From: Pseudomonadales bacterium
GTDB lineage: Bacteria; Pseudomonadota; Gammaproteobacteria; Pseudomonadales; Azotimanducaceae
Length of the DNA: 64,000 nucleotides
Assembly (NCBI GenBank): GCA_007131295.1
Contig: SLQW01000001.1
Coordinates: 1 to 64,000 of the forward strand
Direction of reading: 5' to 3'
The notes beneath the pieces were generated by a model, which was not told where the DNA came from, searched no databases, and saw only the letters and a program-made list of their open reading frames with translations. Below, piece by piece: positions 15,213 to 22,084 of the stretch. Position numbers and translations under genes: made by a program. The first letter of the stretch is position 1; every line of letters begins with the position of its first letter.

Positions 15213-17471
15213 GTGCTGACGACCCCGGCTGAGCATCATCTCGTCCTGCTCGGAGGTGGACACAGTCATCTCGCGGTGCTGCGCCGCTGGGCCATGCGGC
15301 CGCAGCCTGGGGTGCGCCTGACGGTGGTGGCCCGGGAGCTGCACACTCCTTATTCCGGCATGCTGCCGGGGCTGGTGGCTGGGCACTACGACTTCGACGA
15401 TGTGCACGTGGATCTCGGGCCGCTGGCGGTCGCCGCCGGTGCCAGGTTGATCCATGACGAGGTTGCCGGGCTCGATGCAGCGGGCAAACGCCTGCACTTC
15501 GCAGACAGGCCGTCGCTGCGTTACGACACGCTGTCCGTCAACTCCGGCGCAACACCATCTGTTCGTGGCATTGCCGGTGATGTTGACAGCCTCAGGCTGG
15601 TGAAGCCGATATCACGCTTCCTGCCAGGATTCGATGCGGTATGCACCCGGCTGGCGTCAGCTGCGGCGCCGATCGACATTGTTGTGGTGGGAGGTGGGCC
15701 GGGTGGCGTGGAACTGGTGCTGGCGCTCGCCCATCGCCTTACGCGGACAGGGCTGCGGGATCGGGCGCGCCTGGCTCTCGCAAGCGCTTCGGCGCGCCTG
15801 CTGGCAGGGCACGGGCAGGCTGTGGCGCGGGCCATGCTGAGCGAGTTGCAGCATGCCCGGGTGAGCGTGTTGAGCGGTGCGGAAGTCGTTGCGGTGGAAT
15901 CCGGTGTTCTGGTCTGTGCGGACGGCAGCAGGCTCGCTGCAGACGAGACCTTTTGGGTGACCGGTGTGGAGGCACCGCGATGGACCAGGGAATCGGGGCT
16001 CGCCGTCGATGCAGCCGGCTTCATCGAAGTGGGCCCAACGCTGCAGAGCGTATCGCATGACGATGTCTTCGCTGCAGGCGACGTAGCTGCCCTGGGCTTC
16101 GCGCCGCGCCCGAAGTCCGGAGTCTTCGCGGTGCGCGCGGGTGAGGTGCTCGCACGCAATCTGCCGGCATGGATCCGGGGTGAGCGGTTGCGTCGCTTTC
16201 GGCCCCAGCGTCGCGCGCTCTACCTGATTTCCACCGGTAATCGCCGTGCCATCGTCTCCCGACCCGGAGTTCCATCCCTGCGCGGGTCATGGGTCTGGCG
16301 CTGGAAGGACGCGATCGATCGCCGCTTCATGCGGCGCTATCAGGATCTGCCGCCGATGCATGAAGCGCCACGGCGATCAGTGGTGGCGGCGAGCCGGGGC
16401 GGTCAGCGTCTCGCTCAGGGCATGCGCTGTCGCGGCTGCGGTGGCAAGGTTGCCGTGAGCCCTTTGGCCGCGGCACTCGGGCAGGCCGGGATCGGCGCCG
16501 ACCGGCATTTCGAGGATGCGGCAGAACTGCCGGTTGCAGGTCAAGTGCTGCACCAGACTATCGATGGCTTTCCCTTGCCGGTCAGCGATCCCTACCTGGG
16601 TGGGCGTCTGGCGGCGCTGCACGCGCTGGGTGACCTGTACGCCATGGGCGCCGAGCCAGTTGCCGCGCTGGCCCTCGCAGGGATCCCATACGCCCGGGAA
16701 GCCCTGATGGCGGAAGACCTGGCAGCGCTGATGGCGGGCGCGGAGCGGGAGCTCAGGCAGGCGGGCTGTGCGCTGCTCGGTGGACACTCCTGCGAAAGCG
16801 AGACCATCAGTCTGGGCCTTGCCCTCACCGGCCGGGTTGCCGACGCGGACGCGGGCGCCGATGCGGACACCGATGCCAATCGAGCGTTGCGCAAAGACCG
16901 CTTGCAGCCTGGCCAGGCCCTCGTCCTGACCAAGCCGCTAGGTACCGGGGCATTGCTGGCGGGGTCTGCTTCCGGGCAGATCCCATCGCGCCACGTGGAG
17001 GCCGCGCTGGCTTCCATGCTGCTTTCCAACGGGCCTGCGCTGGCGCAGCTGCGGCGCTTCGAGGCCACGGCCTGCACCGACGTCACCGGCTTCGGGCTCC
17101 TCGGCCACGCTTTGGAGATGGCTGCGGCGTCGGGGTGCGCGCTCGAGTTGCAGACCAGCCGGATCACCGCGCTGCCTGGAGCGCTCGAAGCCATCGCCGC
17201 AGGGGTCGTTTCGAGCCTTCAGGACGCCAACGAGGACAGCCTGGAGCACGCGGAGTTGGCTTTCGGCCTGAATCCTGCCGATCCCGAGCTGCGCCTGCTC
17301 TGCGACCCGCAGACCTGTGGTGGTCTGCTCTTCTCGCTCCCGGACACTGCGGCGGATACCTGCGTTGCAGCGCTCCGTGATGCGGGGTACACGGCGGCTG
17401 CGGTGGTCGGACGGGCGGTGCCCGCCAGACCCGGAACGCGGCCGCTGAGGATCCTGTCCGAGGCTTCCTGA
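15213..17471 (+). CDS. selD: Fusion of NADH-dehydrogenase-like FAD oxidoreductase and selenide, water dikinase (SelD)
   Basis: This 752-residue protein has two parts. Residues 1-395 are a pyridine nucleotide-disulfide-type flavoprotein like Ndh, with FAD motif LVLLGGGHSH, a second Rossmann motif VVVGGGPGGVELVLAL and the FAD-closing VFAAGDVAAL. Residues 400-752 are SelD, which makes selenophosphate from selenide and ATP. Cys409 and Lys412 in CRGCGGK align with the essential Cys17 and Lys20 of E. coli SelD; a cysteine, not selenocysteine, is used. Other SelD marks are DLYAMGAEPVAALAL, GGHSCES and TDVTGFGLLGHALEMA. The fusion is known in many bacteria; the oxidoreductase substrate is not established. 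Start is GTG at 15213 with a weak ribosome site. It converges with the dehydrogenase gene. Confidence 0.93.
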   Translation: MLTTPAEHHLVLLGGGHSHLAVLRRWAMRPQPGVRLTVVARELHTPYSGMLPGLVAGHYDFDDVHVDLGPLAVAAGARLIHDEVAGLDAAGKRLHFADRPSLRYDTLSVNSGATPSVRGIAGDVDSLRLVKPISRFLPGFDAVCTRLASAAAPIDIVVVGGGPGGVELVLALAHRLTRTGLRDRARLALASASARLLAGHGQAVARAMLSELQHARVSVLSGAEVVAVESGVLVCADGSRLAADETFWVTGVEAPRWTRESGLAVDAAGFIEVGPTLQSVSHDDVFAAGDVAALGFAPRPKSGVFAVRAGEVLARNLPAWIRGERLRRFRPQRRALYLISTGNRRAIVSRPGVPSLRGSWVWRWKDAIDRRFMRRYQDLPPMHEAPRRSVVAASRGGQRLAQGMRCRGCGGKVAVSPLAAALGQAGIGADRHFEDAAELPVAGQVLHQTIDGFPLPVSDPYLGGRLAALHALGDLYAMGAEPVAALALAGIPYAREALMAEDLAALMAGAERELRQAGCALLGGHSCESETISLGLALTGRVADADAGADADTDANRALRKDRLQPGQALVLTKPLGTGALLAGSASGQIPSRHVEAALASMLLSNGPALAQLRRFEATACTDVTGFGLLGHALEMAAASGCALELQTSRITALPGALEAIAAGVVSSLQDANEDSLEHAELAFGLNPADPELRLLCDPQTCGGLLFSLPDTAADTCVAALRDAGYTAAAVVGRAVPARPGTRPLRILSEAS

Positions 17472-17472
17472 A

Positions 17473-17510
17473 CCCGATGCGCGAGTGCGTTGCAGCGCAC
17501 TTCAGTCGGG
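17473..17510. terminator. Possible bidirectional terminator between convergent genes
   Basis: AGTGCG (17484-17489) pairs with CGCACT (17496-17501), and CCCGA (17473-17477) can pair outside it with TCGGG (17506-17510). There is no T tract in either direction, so the assignment is weak. The structure overlaps the 3' end of the minus-strand gene. Confidence 0.35.
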
Positions 17511-18383
17511 CTGCATGCGCGGTTGATGCAGCGCCAGTGGCTCGACGCCGCTGAAGTGGTCCGCCAGGTCGTCTGCCGTGAACGGTGTATCCCTGAACGC
17601 CACGTGGCGCTCTTCCGGGTGGGTCCAGAGGGCGGCCTTGCGCCCGTTGAACGTCAGGCACTGGCCGTTCAAGTGAGCGGCCGCGTCGCTGGCAAGCCAG
17701 AGCAGGCCTTCCGCGACTTCCTCTGGCTTGCCGAAGCCCATTGCGACCGGATCAGGTGGCTCACGGCCCTTGTCCGCCGCGTCTGCCTTGGCGCGCTCGA
17801 AGACGACCTGAGTCATGTCGGTTTCGGCAATGGGCCAGACCGCATTGCTGCGGATCCCGAGCCGGGTCAGCTCCAGGACCGAAGTGCGCAGCAACCCCAT
17901 CATCCCGGCTTTCGCTGCCGCATAGTTGGCCTGCCCGAAGCCGCCCGACAGTCCGGAGTTGCTGATGACCTGAATAATGTGGCCGCCGGACTCGCGCATG
18001 GCCCGGGCAGCTTCACGCGTGCAGCCGAACGCGCCCCGGAGGTTGACTGCGATGACGTCGTCCCACTCCTGCATCGACATCTTCATCAGCGTCCGGTCGC
18101 GGACGATGCCGGCGTTGTTGACCATGACGTCGATGCCTCCGAAGGCATCGACGCAGCCCGCAACCAGCGCTTCACAGGTGGATTCCTCGGCAACGGAACC
18201 CGGCACGGCGACGACCGAGCCGCCCGCACTGCGGATCGTGCCTTCGACCTCCGCAAGTGCTTCGAGATTGGTGCCGTTCAACACCACGCTTGCGCCCTCG
18301 CGTGCCATGGCGATCGCGAAGGCGCGCCCCAGGCCACGTGAAGACCCCGTTATCACCACCCGTTTGCCATCAAGCCTTGCCAT
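17502..18383 (-). CDS. Short-chain dehydrogenase/reductase (SDR)
   Basis: The 293-residue NAD(P)-dependent oxidoreductase carries the SDR nucleotide motif TGSSRGLG (near residue 12), NNAG near residue 90, and the catalytic Tyr-x-x-x-Lys as NYAAAKAG near residue 160, with the preceding serine region VISNSGLSGG. The C-terminal 40 residues form an extension beyond the usual SDR core. Substrate cannot be inferred; hydroxyacyl or steroid substrates are possible. ATG at 18383 follows GGGAGAGG. An upstream in-frame extension runs through the tRNA-Sec gene and is not credible. It lies downstream of selC on the same strand and could be read from the sel transcript, but no functional link to selenium is evident. 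Confidence 0.88.
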   Translation of the reverse strand: MARLDGKRVVITGSSRGLGRAFAIAMAREGASVVLNGTNLEALAEVEGTIRSAGGSVVAVPGSVAEESTCEALVAGCVDAFGGIDVMVNNAGIVRDRTLMKMSMQEWDDVIAVNLRGAFGCTREAARAMRESGGHIIQVISNSGLSGGFGQANYAAAKAGMMGLLRTSVLELTRLGIRSNAVWPIAETDMTQVVFERAKADAADKGREPPDPVAMGFGKPEEVAEGLLWLASDAAAHLNGQCLTFNGRKAALWTHPEERHVAFRDTPFTADDLADHFSGVEPLALHQPRMQPD

Positions 18384-18422
18384 CTGCCTCTCCCTCATCG
18401 TCCTGCCGGTGCGGTGCCATCG

Positions 18423-18451
18423 GCGGTTGCGGTTGCGGTTGCGGTTGCGGT
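18423..18451. repeat. Hexamer microsatellite, GCGGTT about 4.8 copies
   Basis: Four complete GCGGTT units and a partial fifth lie between the SDR start codon and selC. No gene uses it. The remaining sequence of 18384-18589 shows nothing further. Such short arrays can vary in copy number by slippage. Confidence 0.9.
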
Positions 18452-18589
18452 CCATGTTGCCATGCCCAGCCTCCTTTGCGGCGATCGCTGGAAGCGAGGT
18501 ACTCGAAACGGCGGGTCCGGTTCCGAAAGACATGCGCGGAAGGAGGGGCGCAGACTGCGATTCGTCACGGCGACGCTCGTCGCTGCAGG

Positions 18590-18683
18590 TGGCGGAAGGC
18601 CGGGGAGTCGAACCCCGCAGGCACGCGTGGCGCGCCTCACCGGGTTTGAAGTCCGGGCGCCCCACCGGGGACGTTGCGCTTCC
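18590..18683 (-). tRNA. selC: tRNA-Sec (selC), anticodon TCA
   Basis: On the minus strand a 94-nt tRNA starts GGAAGCGC and ends CTTCC-G-CCA. The anticodon loop is CTTCAAA (TCA), reading UGA. A long variable arm is formed by AGGCGCG and CGTGCCT (7 bp, loop CCACG). The T arm is CGGGG-TTCGACT-CCCCG, and the discriminator is G as in other tRNA-Sec. The D-arm region GTCCCCGGTGGGGC resembles that of E. coli selC. Two details are odd: the acceptor 5' strand has one extra base, so C6 must bulge to give seven pairs plus five T-stem pairs, and A31-C39 at the base of the anticodon stem is a mismatch. It sits downstream of selAB on the same strand. Confidence 0.95.
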
Positions 18684-18736
18684 GCAGACGAGTCTACCGA
18701 CGACAAACCGGAGCGGCCAGCCGGCTGCGGGCGCTC

Positions 18737-18784
18737 AGTCAGGGACGGTAAGTCAGGGACGGTGAGTCAGGGACCGCTAGTCAG
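18737..18784. repeat. 14-bp tandem repeat overlapping the selB stop codon
   Basis: AGTCAGGGACGGTA (18737-18750), AGTCAGGGACGGTG (18751-18764) and AGTCAGGGACCGCT (18765-18778) are consecutive, and a fourth unit begins with AGTCAG (18779-18784). The array spans the 3' end of selB and the selB-selC spacer. Units differ by one to three bases. Confidence 0.9.
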
Positions 18785-20681
18785 CGGCGCTTGAGCCCTG
18801 GCTTTCGCCGAAGATATCCGTTGGGTCGGCGACCACTCGGCGCAGGTCGCCAGAGCGGCGCGTCAGGCCTATACGATCGAAGTACTCGAGGAGATCGATG
18901 GTGAGGTTGCGGCCGATTCCGGCAGCGTCGCGAAAGCTGCGTGCATCGAAACTGCCTTCGTTGGCTGCCGCCACGATCGTCGTGAGCGCGGCCAGCTCGG
19001 CTACGGCCTCGGGCAGGAGAAAACGGTTCCTCGCGACCCGCACCAGGCCGCCGGTGTGAACGATGCGCCCGAGCAGCGTCGTCAGGTCGTCGGGGTCGAG
19101 GTCCAGCTTGCGCGCGAGATCGTGGACGACGGGAGGCTGCCTGGGCTGCTCGGCGAGATGCGGACGCAGGTCCTGCCATCGCCGGGCATCTGCCGGGTCC
19201 AGGCGCGGCCGGTGATCCGGCAGATGAAAGCGGGTCGCTGTTCGAGCGAGACGCGCGTCGCGGATGAGGTCACGCAGGGCCGCTCGCAGTACGGATGGCG
19301 CCGGTCGTGGTTCGAGCACTGCGAGGACTTCATCGAAGCCCATGCCCGCGAGTTGCGGCTGCCCGGCGTGGAAGCGTGTGAGGGCATCGACGATTCGATC
19401 AGCCAGCGCACGCCAGGCGGCCGCATCGCGCAAAGTCACGCCGCCGGAGCGATCGACCGCGGTCCCGGGTAACGCCGCAATGAGGTCGTCGGGGTTGGCG
19501 TTGAGCTTCCAGGCGAGTGCAGCGACATCCAATGCCAGGGGCCGGCAGACGAGTGCGGCGCGGGCGATGGCTGCATGCTCGCCGGCTTCCAGTGCATCGA
19601 GTTCGGCAAGGCGTGCCGGATGGCTGCGCCCGCGCCGTGGTGGCTCCGGGTCGAGGACGCGGCCACCGGCGAGCGTGTGGCTGCCGCTCCCGTCGCGGAG
19701 GATGAAGCGATCACCGTGCAGGACGCCGAGCGGTTCGCGCACGATGACATGGGCCCTGGGTGCTTCTTGGCCGCCGTCGATGTGCACGATCCGCCCCATG
19801 ACATGGCTGGCGCCGTGGTGCACGTGCAGATCCTGGCCCGAACGCAGGGCGACCCCTGGCAGCAGGCGCAGGCGCGCATCGAATCGGGTTTGGGGGTGTG
19901 CGAGTTCGGGTGCCACCAGCCACTGCCCCCGCTTCACTCGGGAGTGGTGCACACCGGAGAGATTCAGGGCGAGGCGCTCGCCGGCCACGCCCTGGCTGGA
20001 GATCCTGTCCAGGGCTCGCACGCTCTTTGCCCTGACCGCTTCGTTGTCCGGCAGAACCACAAGTGTGTCCTCCGGCTTTACCCGCCCCGCATGAGCGGTG
20101 CCGGTTACGACGAGTCCGGCTCCGCTTACGGTGAAAGCGCGGTCGATGGCGAGGCGAAAGCCTGATTCCGTCCTGATCGATGGGCGCGGCGAAAGCGCGC
20201 TCAGGGCCTGCCGAAGGGTATCGATTCCCGTCCCTTCGGGTGCGCAAACGACCACGATCGGAGCCTGCGCGAGACAGGTTGACGCTAACAGTTCCGTAAT
20301 GGCGTCGCGGCTGCGGGCCAGGGTTCGGTCGTCTGCCAAGTCACTGCGCGTGAGGGCCACGACGGCCGCCTCGACGCCGAGCAGATCGAGAATCTGCAAA
20401 TGCTCGCGGGTCTGCGGCATCGGTCCTTCGTCCGCCGCTACCACCAGCAGCGCCACATCGATGGCGGCGACACCGGCCAGCATGTTGCCGATGAAGCGGT
20501 GATGGCCGGGTACGTCGATGAACCCCCAGCGCTGGCCCAGCCAGTCACTATAGGCGAAACCGAGGTCGATGGTGAGCCCGCGTCGCTGCTCTTCTTCGAG
20601 GCGGTCCGTGTCCACGCCGGTCAAGGCACGGACCAGGGTGGTCTTGCCATGGTCGACGTGACCGGCGGTGGCGATGATCAC
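18777..20681 (-). CDS. selB: Selenocysteine-specific elongation factor SelB
   Basis: The 634-residue GTPase delivers Sec-tRNA to the ribosome at UGA codons marked by a SECIS hairpin. The N-terminal G domain shows GHVDHGKTTL, the switch region RGLTIDLGFAY, DVPGHHRFIGNM (His where Glu is commoner) and TRSD. EF-Tu-like domains II-III follow to about residue 370. The C-terminal 250 residues are winged-helix repeats that read the SECIS element, for example HDLARKLDLDPDDL and the final FDRIGLTRRSGDLR. E. coli SelB has 614 residues, so this is full length. The start ATG overlaps the selA stop by four bases, indicating coupling. A 14-bp repeat array covers its stop codon. Confidence 0.97.
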   Translation of the reverse strand: MIIATAGHVDHGKTTLVRALTGVDTDRLEEEQRRGLTIDLGFAYSDWLGQRWGFIDVPGHHRFIGNMLAGVAAIDVALLVVAADEGPMPQTREHLQILDLLGVEAAVVALTRSDLADDRTLARSRDAITELLASTCLAQAPIVVVCAPEGTGIDTLRQALSALSPRPSIRTESGFRLAIDRAFTVSGAGLVVTGTAHAGRVKPEDTLVVLPDNEAVRAKSVRALDRISSQGVAGERLALNLSGVHHSRVKRGQWLVAPELAHPQTRFDARLRLLPGVALRSGQDLHVHHGASHVMGRIVHIDGGQEAPRAHVIVREPLGVLHGDRFILRDGSGSHTLAGGRVLDPEPPRRGRSHPARLAELDALEAGEHAAIARAALVCRPLALDVAALAWKLNANPDDLIAALPGTAVDRSGGVTLRDAAAWRALADRIVDALTRFHAGQPQLAGMGFDEVLAVLEPRPAPSVLRAALRDLIRDARLARTATRFHLPDHRPRLDPADARRWQDLRPHLAEQPRQPPVVHDLARKLDLDPDDLTTLLGRIVHTGGLVRVARNRFLLPEAVAELAALTTIVAAANEGSFDARSFRDAAGIGRNLTIDLLEYFDRIGLTRRSGDLRRVVADPTDIFGESQGSSAAD

Positions 20682-22084
20682 GCCGCTGCGATCTCCGGAA
20701 GCTGAGCGAGGAAGCCCGGCTCGTCCTCGAGGCAGCGCAGGTCGAGCAGCAGCCGCTCCTGCTGAATGCGTCCGACCACCGGGGTCGGCAGCCGACGCAG
20801 GCGCCGGTGCAGCTGCTCGAGCGCCGCATTGCGGCCGCGTTCGAGCAGCGGTTCGATGGCGAGACCGGCGCTCGCAAGGCTCGCGACCGGCAGCGCGCCG
20901 CTGCCGATCTGGCTGGCCAGGTCGACGACTTCGACCTCCCAGGGTGGCCCAAGAGCTTCAGCAAGGGGTGTTCGGAGACGATACGCCAGGGCTCGGATCT
21001 CGGTCTGCGTCCTGGTCAGCAGGCGCAGCACCGGCAGCTCTTGGCGCAGCGTTTCGTCGCGACCATACAGACGCAGCACGGCGGCGAGGGCAGCCAGGGT
21101 GACCTTGTCCACCCGCAAGGCCCGCTTCAAAGGGTTGCGGCGCAGAGCTTCCACGGCGCTGCGGCTGCCAACGATGATCCCGGCCTGGGGACCGCCAAGC
21201 AGCTTGTCCCCGGAAAAGGTGACCAGGTCGGCGCCCGCCGTCAGGGCCTCTCCAGGGGTCGGCTCCCGTTCCAGACCGAAGCGGGAAAGATCGACGAGAC
21301 TGCCGCTGCCGAGGTCCCATCCGAGCGGCAGGCCGTGAGCATGTGCGATGCCGGCCAGCTCTCCGATCGTCACCTCCTGCTGGAATCCGGTGATGACGTA
21401 ATTGCTGGGGTGCACCTTCAACAGCATGCCGGTCTCCGGACCGATGGACTCGGTGTAGTCGGAAGCGTGCGTCCGGTTGGTGGTGCCGATCTCCACCAGG
21501 CGGGCCCCCGCCCGTCGCATGATGTCGGGCAGACGGAACGAGCCGCCGATCTCCACCAGCTCGCCCCGGGAGACCGGCACCTCGCGACCCTCGGCGAAGG
21601 TGTTGAGAAGCAGCAGGACGGCGGCAGCGTTGTTATTGACGACGGTTGCCGCCTCGGCTCCGGTGAGTTCGCACAGAAGTCGTTCGACGTGGTGGTCGCG
21701 CTCACCGCGGCGGCCACTCGGGAGATCGAATTCCAGGTCGGTTGTGCCCGCCGCGGTAGCCATGGCGGCAATGGCTGCAGCAGGAAGGGGCGCCCGCCCG
21801 AGATTCGTGTGGATCACGGTACCAGTGAGATTGAAGAGGGCGCGAGGGCCCCGTCCGGGTAACGCTTCCAGGCGATGGGTCAGAGTCTGGATCAAAGCAT
21901 CGACGCCTGGGACAGGCGAGCCCGAAGCCAGACCCGCACGGGCATCTGCGAGCACTTGGCGTGCCTCCGTGCGCACGGTGGTGCGCCCCCAGGCTGCTTC
22001 GAGCGCAGCGACGGCAGGCAGCGCCAGCAGCCGGTCCATGGCGGGCAGACCTGCGCGGGGGTCGGGGGCGGGAGATTCGGCCAT
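20678..22084 (-). CDS. selA: L-seryl-tRNA(Sec) selenium transferase SelA
   Basis: The 468-residue pyridoxal-phosphate enzyme converts Ser-tRNA(Sec) to Sec-tRNA(Sec) using selenophosphate. The cofactor lysine lies in TFSGDKLLGGPQAGII (near residue 295, as in E. coli). Other SelA signatures are NLTGTVIHTNLGRAPL near residue 85, VNNNAAAVLLLLNT, VSRGELVEIGGSFRLPDIM and the KVHPSNY segment. The N-terminal helical domain that binds tRNA-Sec is present. ATG at 22084 has GGAAG 6 bases upstream. It is the first gene of a selA-selB-selC run; the NADH-dehydrogenase-like/SelD fusion that supplies selenophosphate is 5 kb away on the other strand. Confidence 0.97.
   Translation of the reverse strand: MAESPAPDPRAGLPAMDRLLALPAVAALEAAWGRTTVRTEARQVLADARAGLASGSPVPGVDALIQTLTHRLEALPGRGPRALFNLTGTVIHTNLGRAPLPAAAIAAMATAAGTTDLEFDLPSGRRGERDHHVERLLCELTGAEAATVVNNNAAAVLLLLNTFAEGREVPVSRGELVEIGGSFRLPDIMRRAGARLVEIGTTNRTHASDYTESIGPETGMLLKVHPSNYVITGFQQEVTIGELAGIAHAHGLPLGWDLGSGSLVDLSRFGLEREPTPGEALTAGADLVTFSGDKLLGGPQAGIIVGSRSAVEALRRNPLKRALRVDKVTLAALAAVLRLYGRDETLRQELPVLRLLTRTQTEIRALAYRLRTPLAEALGPPWEVEVVDLASQIGSGALPVASLASAGLAIEPLLERGRNAALEQLHRRLRRLPTPVVGRIQQERLLLDLRCLEDEPGFLAQLPEIAAA

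Follow-up and report, generated by a model that had tools for sequence, protein, structure and literature searches.

Textbook recognition of tRNA-Sec is based on an acceptor-T arm of 13 base pairs. Shorter arms are known from Santesmasses et al. 2017 (PMC5330540), who described 47 bacterial tRNA-Sec, Gammaproteobacteria included, in which the acceptor-T arm has only 12 bp, and who made the case that they function. Most of these bulge at 3a, 4a or 5a, while some instead place the spare base at 7a. A bulge at 43a in the anticodon stem is common, but not universal, among them. Epsilonproteobacterial Sec users also carry 7/5 tRNA-Sec with a 12-pair acceptor-T arm (PMC4607533). An Aeromonas SelA with a 12-pair cognate tRNA-Sec has served in engineering (PMC6267555). 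The selC gene described here is a well-supported new example of this rare, already described variant, not a new kind of tRNA. What the analysis adds is a family on 12 pairs throughout our sample, two registers of the spare base within it, and the candidate selenoproteins served.

The window, meaning the whole 64,000-nt stretch of DNA analysed, contains what is very probably a functional selC encoding a 7/5-type tRNA-Sec with 12 acceptor-T pairs and a bulged nucleotide 5a (C6). This reading of the sequence draws on the tRNA calls, the unconstrained fold, the conserved bulge, covarying D and T stems, the SelA clade, intact Sec machinery, conserved UGA codons and 12 pairs across the family. The gene comprises the following parts, from the 5' end of the tRNA:

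18590..18683, minus strand: selC, tRNA-Sec(UCA), GCCA end encoded (ARAGORN; Rfam RF01852, 62.5 bits)
18676..18683, minus strand: 5' acceptor strand GGAAGCGC, C6 bulged at 18678 (minimum-energy fold; identical in seven genomes)
18658..18673, minus strand: D arm, 6-bp stem and 4-nt loop (4 of 6 pairs altered on both sides between species)
18640..18656, minus strand: anticodon arm, UCA at 18649-18647, closing A-C mismatch (columns 32/40)
18619..18637, minus strand: long variable arm, 8-bp stem (fold and alignment)
18601..18617, minus strand: T arm, 5-bp stem, loop TTCGACT (2 of 5 pairs altered on both sides)
18594..18600, minus strand: 3' acceptor strand GCCTTCC, 7 nt against the usual 8 (fold and seven-genome comparison)
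18593, minus strand: discriminator base G73 (sequence)

Both tRNA searches identified the gene. ARAGORN called tRNA-SeC(tca) at 18591-18684(-), and the covariance-model check proposed in the earlier note returned an RF01852 match at 18683-18594(-) that clears the gathering score (47); the Rfam alignment opens a gap within the 3' acceptor strand. The interval given in that note, 18590-18683, is exact, ending on a gene-encoded CCA at 18592-18590. UCA anticodon, G73, 6-bp D stem and long variable arm are all present. This is the sole tRNA-Sec of the genome; the other above-cut-off match is a tRNA-Ser(tga). A mechanically called short-chain dehydrogenase ORF (17502-18665 of the window, minus strand) adjoins selC and extends back through the tRNA; its true start must be further downstream.

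The bulged cloverleaf is the preferred fold of the molecule. The unconstrained minimum-energy structure (-47.4 kcal/mol) leaves C6 unpaired, and removing the two inner acceptor pairs raises the energy to -43.8 kcal/mol. It reproduces what the earlier note had proposed, 7 acceptor pairs around a bulged C6 plus 5 T-stem pairs (CGGGG/CCCCG); all 12 are Watson-Crick, and the 3' strand runs to 12 nt. An unbulged acceptor register was ruled out, as it sets C against C and G against G. The arm thus departs from the canonical 8/5 form, with its 8-bp acceptor, 5-bp T stem and 13-nt 3' strand, and falls in the class of 12-bp arms with an acceptor bulge, here at 5a (PMC5330540). The unpaired A31-C39 reported in the same note also stands, and this mismatch (alignment columns 32/40) recurs in 7 of 7 genomes. 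At the 43a site, alignment A1 shows T45 unpaired, with a possible C27-G46 pair that would skip it; both are invariant, and covariation there is uninformative.

Among described tRNAs, the closest counterpart is column C (5a bulge) of Santesmasses et al., which shares with selC a 7-bp acceptor with bulge, a 5-bp T stem, G73 and a selABC cluster. The match is to the described structure, and members of the present clade may be on that paper's species list. The earlier note's statement that such forms are rare but reported is borne out. Column D (7a), the form in the rest of the family, agrees in the nucleotide count before the D stem and in the 12-nt 3' strand, as described there, whereas its unpaired base lies in the linker and that of selC inside the acceptor stem. 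The Epsilonproteobacterial tRNAs belong to a distant lineage; the comparison with them covers pair count, in which they are alike. E. coli tRNA-Sec, canonical 8/5, shares the 6-bp D stem, long variable arm, G73 and UCA but has 13 pairs and no bulge. Its pairs C7-G66, G49-U65 and C50-G64 are used for recognition by SelB and for rejection by EF-Tu (PMC6267555); of these, selC matches only in having C-G as its last acceptor pair, the antideterminants G49-U65 and C50-G64 being absent (T-stem pair 1 is C-G or G-C, pair 2 G-C).

The bulge is conserved beyond the source genome. The same 5' strand, the 3' strand GCCTTCC and a 5-bp T stem occur in seven genomes: the source, 5 of 5 sampled congeners (G001-G005) and G015, a member of another genus. 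These seven tRNAs represent five distinct sequences. Paired cells amount to 96.1% across them; shifting the partners 1-3 columns brings this down to 38.7-51.0%. Six pairs are altered on both sides, all within the D and T stems. Conservation across seven genomes, this pairing and the six two-sided changes exclude a chance origin of the fold. The acceptor pairs and C6 are invariant, so acceptor covariation speaks neither for nor against the bulge. The tRNA of G015 shares the 5a bulge and has a very different D stem, with 4 of 6 pairs changed; such strong change in a second genus supports long-term retention of the bulge. SelA of the seven bulge holders forms one clade of exactly these genomes (support 100/99), in a tree that is midpoint-rooted only and has the G056 family, with 13-pair tRNAs, sitting inside it.

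This conservation bears directly on whether C6 is a single wrong base in an otherwise ordinary tRNA-Sec. The source assembly is a draft in 222 contigs (3.87 Mb, 98% complete), which lends some weight to a sequencing or assembly error. Against this, comparison with relatives, which the earlier note had called for, found the extra base identical in six other genomes, in one of them within a tRNA identical to that of the source, and the probability we leave to an error is negligible.

The whole family shares the short arm; what is peculiar to this lineage is the position of the spare base. We found tRNA-Sec in 110 of 151 family genomes and parsed 109, the remaining one being cut by a contig end and giving no ARAGORN call. 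In 102 of the 109, a 12-nt 3' strand forms 7+5 pairs without a bulge, and one extra nucleotide (7a) lies between the acceptor and D stems, typically as GGAAGAG-C/CTCTTCC. A perfect 8-bp acceptor stem in relatives, which the earlier note held would overturn its reading, occurs in none of the 109. G039 (L025), from another family of the order, is also 12-paired and unbulged with its spare base at 7a. Beyond the family, among 56 classifiable tRNA-Sec from samples of the class and phylum, 54 have the usual 13-nt 3' strand. This is a rough measure of rarity, since these loci were found with a general tRNA-Sec model that tends to give 12-pair forms lower scores. The two exceptions are G484, with an unbulged 12-nt strand, and G714, bulged after position 4. 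Two further loci in these samples were unclassifiable by script, and one lacked a tRNA-Sec call.

The machinery for selenocysteine synthesis and delivery is encoded around selC:

18777..20681, minus strand: selB, Sec-specific elongation factor with winged-helix domains (TIGR00475, 428.7 bits; PF09106, PF09107)
20678..22084, minus strand: selA, selenocysteine synthase with N-terminal domain (TIGR00474, 547.7 bits; PF12390, PF03841)
15213..17471, plus strand: pyridine-nucleotide oxidoreductase-SelD fusion, selenophosphate synthetase (TIGR03169, 436.8 bits; TIGR00476, 222.8 bits; both over cut-off)

selA and selB stand immediately upstream of selC on the same strand, with scores over the NCBIfam cut-offs; the selD fusion lies downstream, on the strand opposite selA-selB-selC. 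Loss of the N-terminal domain is reported to mark those SelA homologues that have ceased to make Sec-tRNA (PMC4607533). In the selD fusion the oxidoreductase part is N-terminal, and a match to TIGR04369 (fusion_not_SelD) stays below cut-off (501 versus 700).

Genomic context also separates selC from tRNA-Sec-like suppressors. Allo-tRNAs and selC-star tRNA-Cys likewise have 12-pair acceptor arms (PMC7609411), and a tRNA of that type would no longer accept Sec. Yet selC-star tRNA-Cys has U73 and allo-tRNAs are 8/4 or 9/3 (PMC7609411), while selC combines G73, a UCA anticodon and a 6-bp D stem with a position directly after selB, and is the only tRNA-Sec of a genome with UGA-containing redoxin genes. 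We regard a suppressor as extremely improbable.

The likely clients of selC lie outside the window. Two AhpC/TSA-type (ResA/AhpC-like) paralogues in the genome contain an in-frame UGA:

G000:C174:7040-7978: WAPYUGC gene (L188)
G000:C12:29215-30003, minus strand: WSSWUGC gene (L189)

The genome contains selA, selB, selD and UGA-containing selenoprotein genes together with its tRNA-Sec. The WAPYUGC protein scores 402.1 bits (cut-off 300) with NCBIfam NF041054 (ResA-like WAxxUGC protein). Its orthologues in three congeners are 83-84% identical and keep the in-frame TGA, as do nearly all matches across 49 family genomes; the motif could be located in 27 of 30 orthologue loci, and all 27 have TGA as the codon. 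That a UGA has been retained at a redox motif across a family strongly indicates that it is decoded by the only tRNA-Sec. CMD-family (PF02627) matches had no UGA, and scanning the window by codon usage for genes with an in-frame UGA turned up no convincing candidate. In G023 and G027 the WAPYUGC orthologue with its UGA is present and a tRNA-Sec was not found above the search threshold; their tRNA-Sec may have diverged or be missing from the draft.

These genes also weigh on whether selC is decaying or repurposed in a lineage losing selenocysteine. FdnG-type formate dehydrogenase is the usual Sec user in Gammaproteobacteria, and neither it nor an Rdx/SelW protein was found in the genome; with the unusual acceptor and anticodon stems, this is what decay could look like. 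However, selA, selB and selD are intact, the UGA of the redoxin genes is conserved in relatives, and the tRNA itself carries compensatory changes, all of which makes decay very improbable.

How a functional 12-pair selC might have arisen and work can be sketched. An ordinary tRNA-Sec would have lost one nucleotide of the 3' acceptor strand, leaving one base of the 5' strand unpaired. In most of the family this base would sit at 7a; in the bulge clade the pairing would have shifted, leaving C6 unpaired and bringing the following G and C into pairs. Few substitutions would suffice: C for A at position 6, and GC for CT as the opening two bases of the 3' strand. The direction from 7a to 5a is tentative, because the SelA tree is midpoint-rooted and the 13-pair G056 lineage sits inside it.

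SerRS recognises G73 and the long variable arm (PMC9976931), and most likely charges the selC product through these. SelA reads the D arm, and SelB touches the acceptor and T stems (PMC6267555); here SelA would read the 6-bp D arm and convert Ser to Sec, and SelB would deliver Sec-tRNA to the UGA codons of the ResA-like selenoproteins, as the intact machinery and conserved UGA suggest. Removal of an acceptor pair in E. coli abolishes UGA read-through and Sec insertion (PMC6267555), a result that would count against a working 12-pair tRNA here. Speculatively, stacking of the bulged C6 into the helix could recover some of the length that a 13-layer arm would have. A broader proposal, tentative and on balance unlikely, is that the spare nucleotide moved from 7a to 5a within one family, with the bulge kept as a spacer or EF-Tu antideterminant and the SelA or SelB of the clade adapted. 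The question of recognition by SelA, SelB and EF-Tu is not new, being the known one for 12-pair tRNA-Sec. Close relatives with two registers and UGA-bearing selenoprotein genes form a natural set for testing arm length against spare base for these three proteins.

A scan of contigs for the bulge pattern yielded six true tRNA-Sec, apparently all in genomes already seen, and five further records without a tRNA-Sec call. The six come from public MAGs with differing isolate names, two 'CSSed' isolates labelled Pseudomonadales bacterium and the rest Gammaproteobacteria bacterium. In another family of the class, locus L263 (G714) reads GGAATGAG/CTCTTCC and needs a bulge after position 4, the 4a type, to pair in full.
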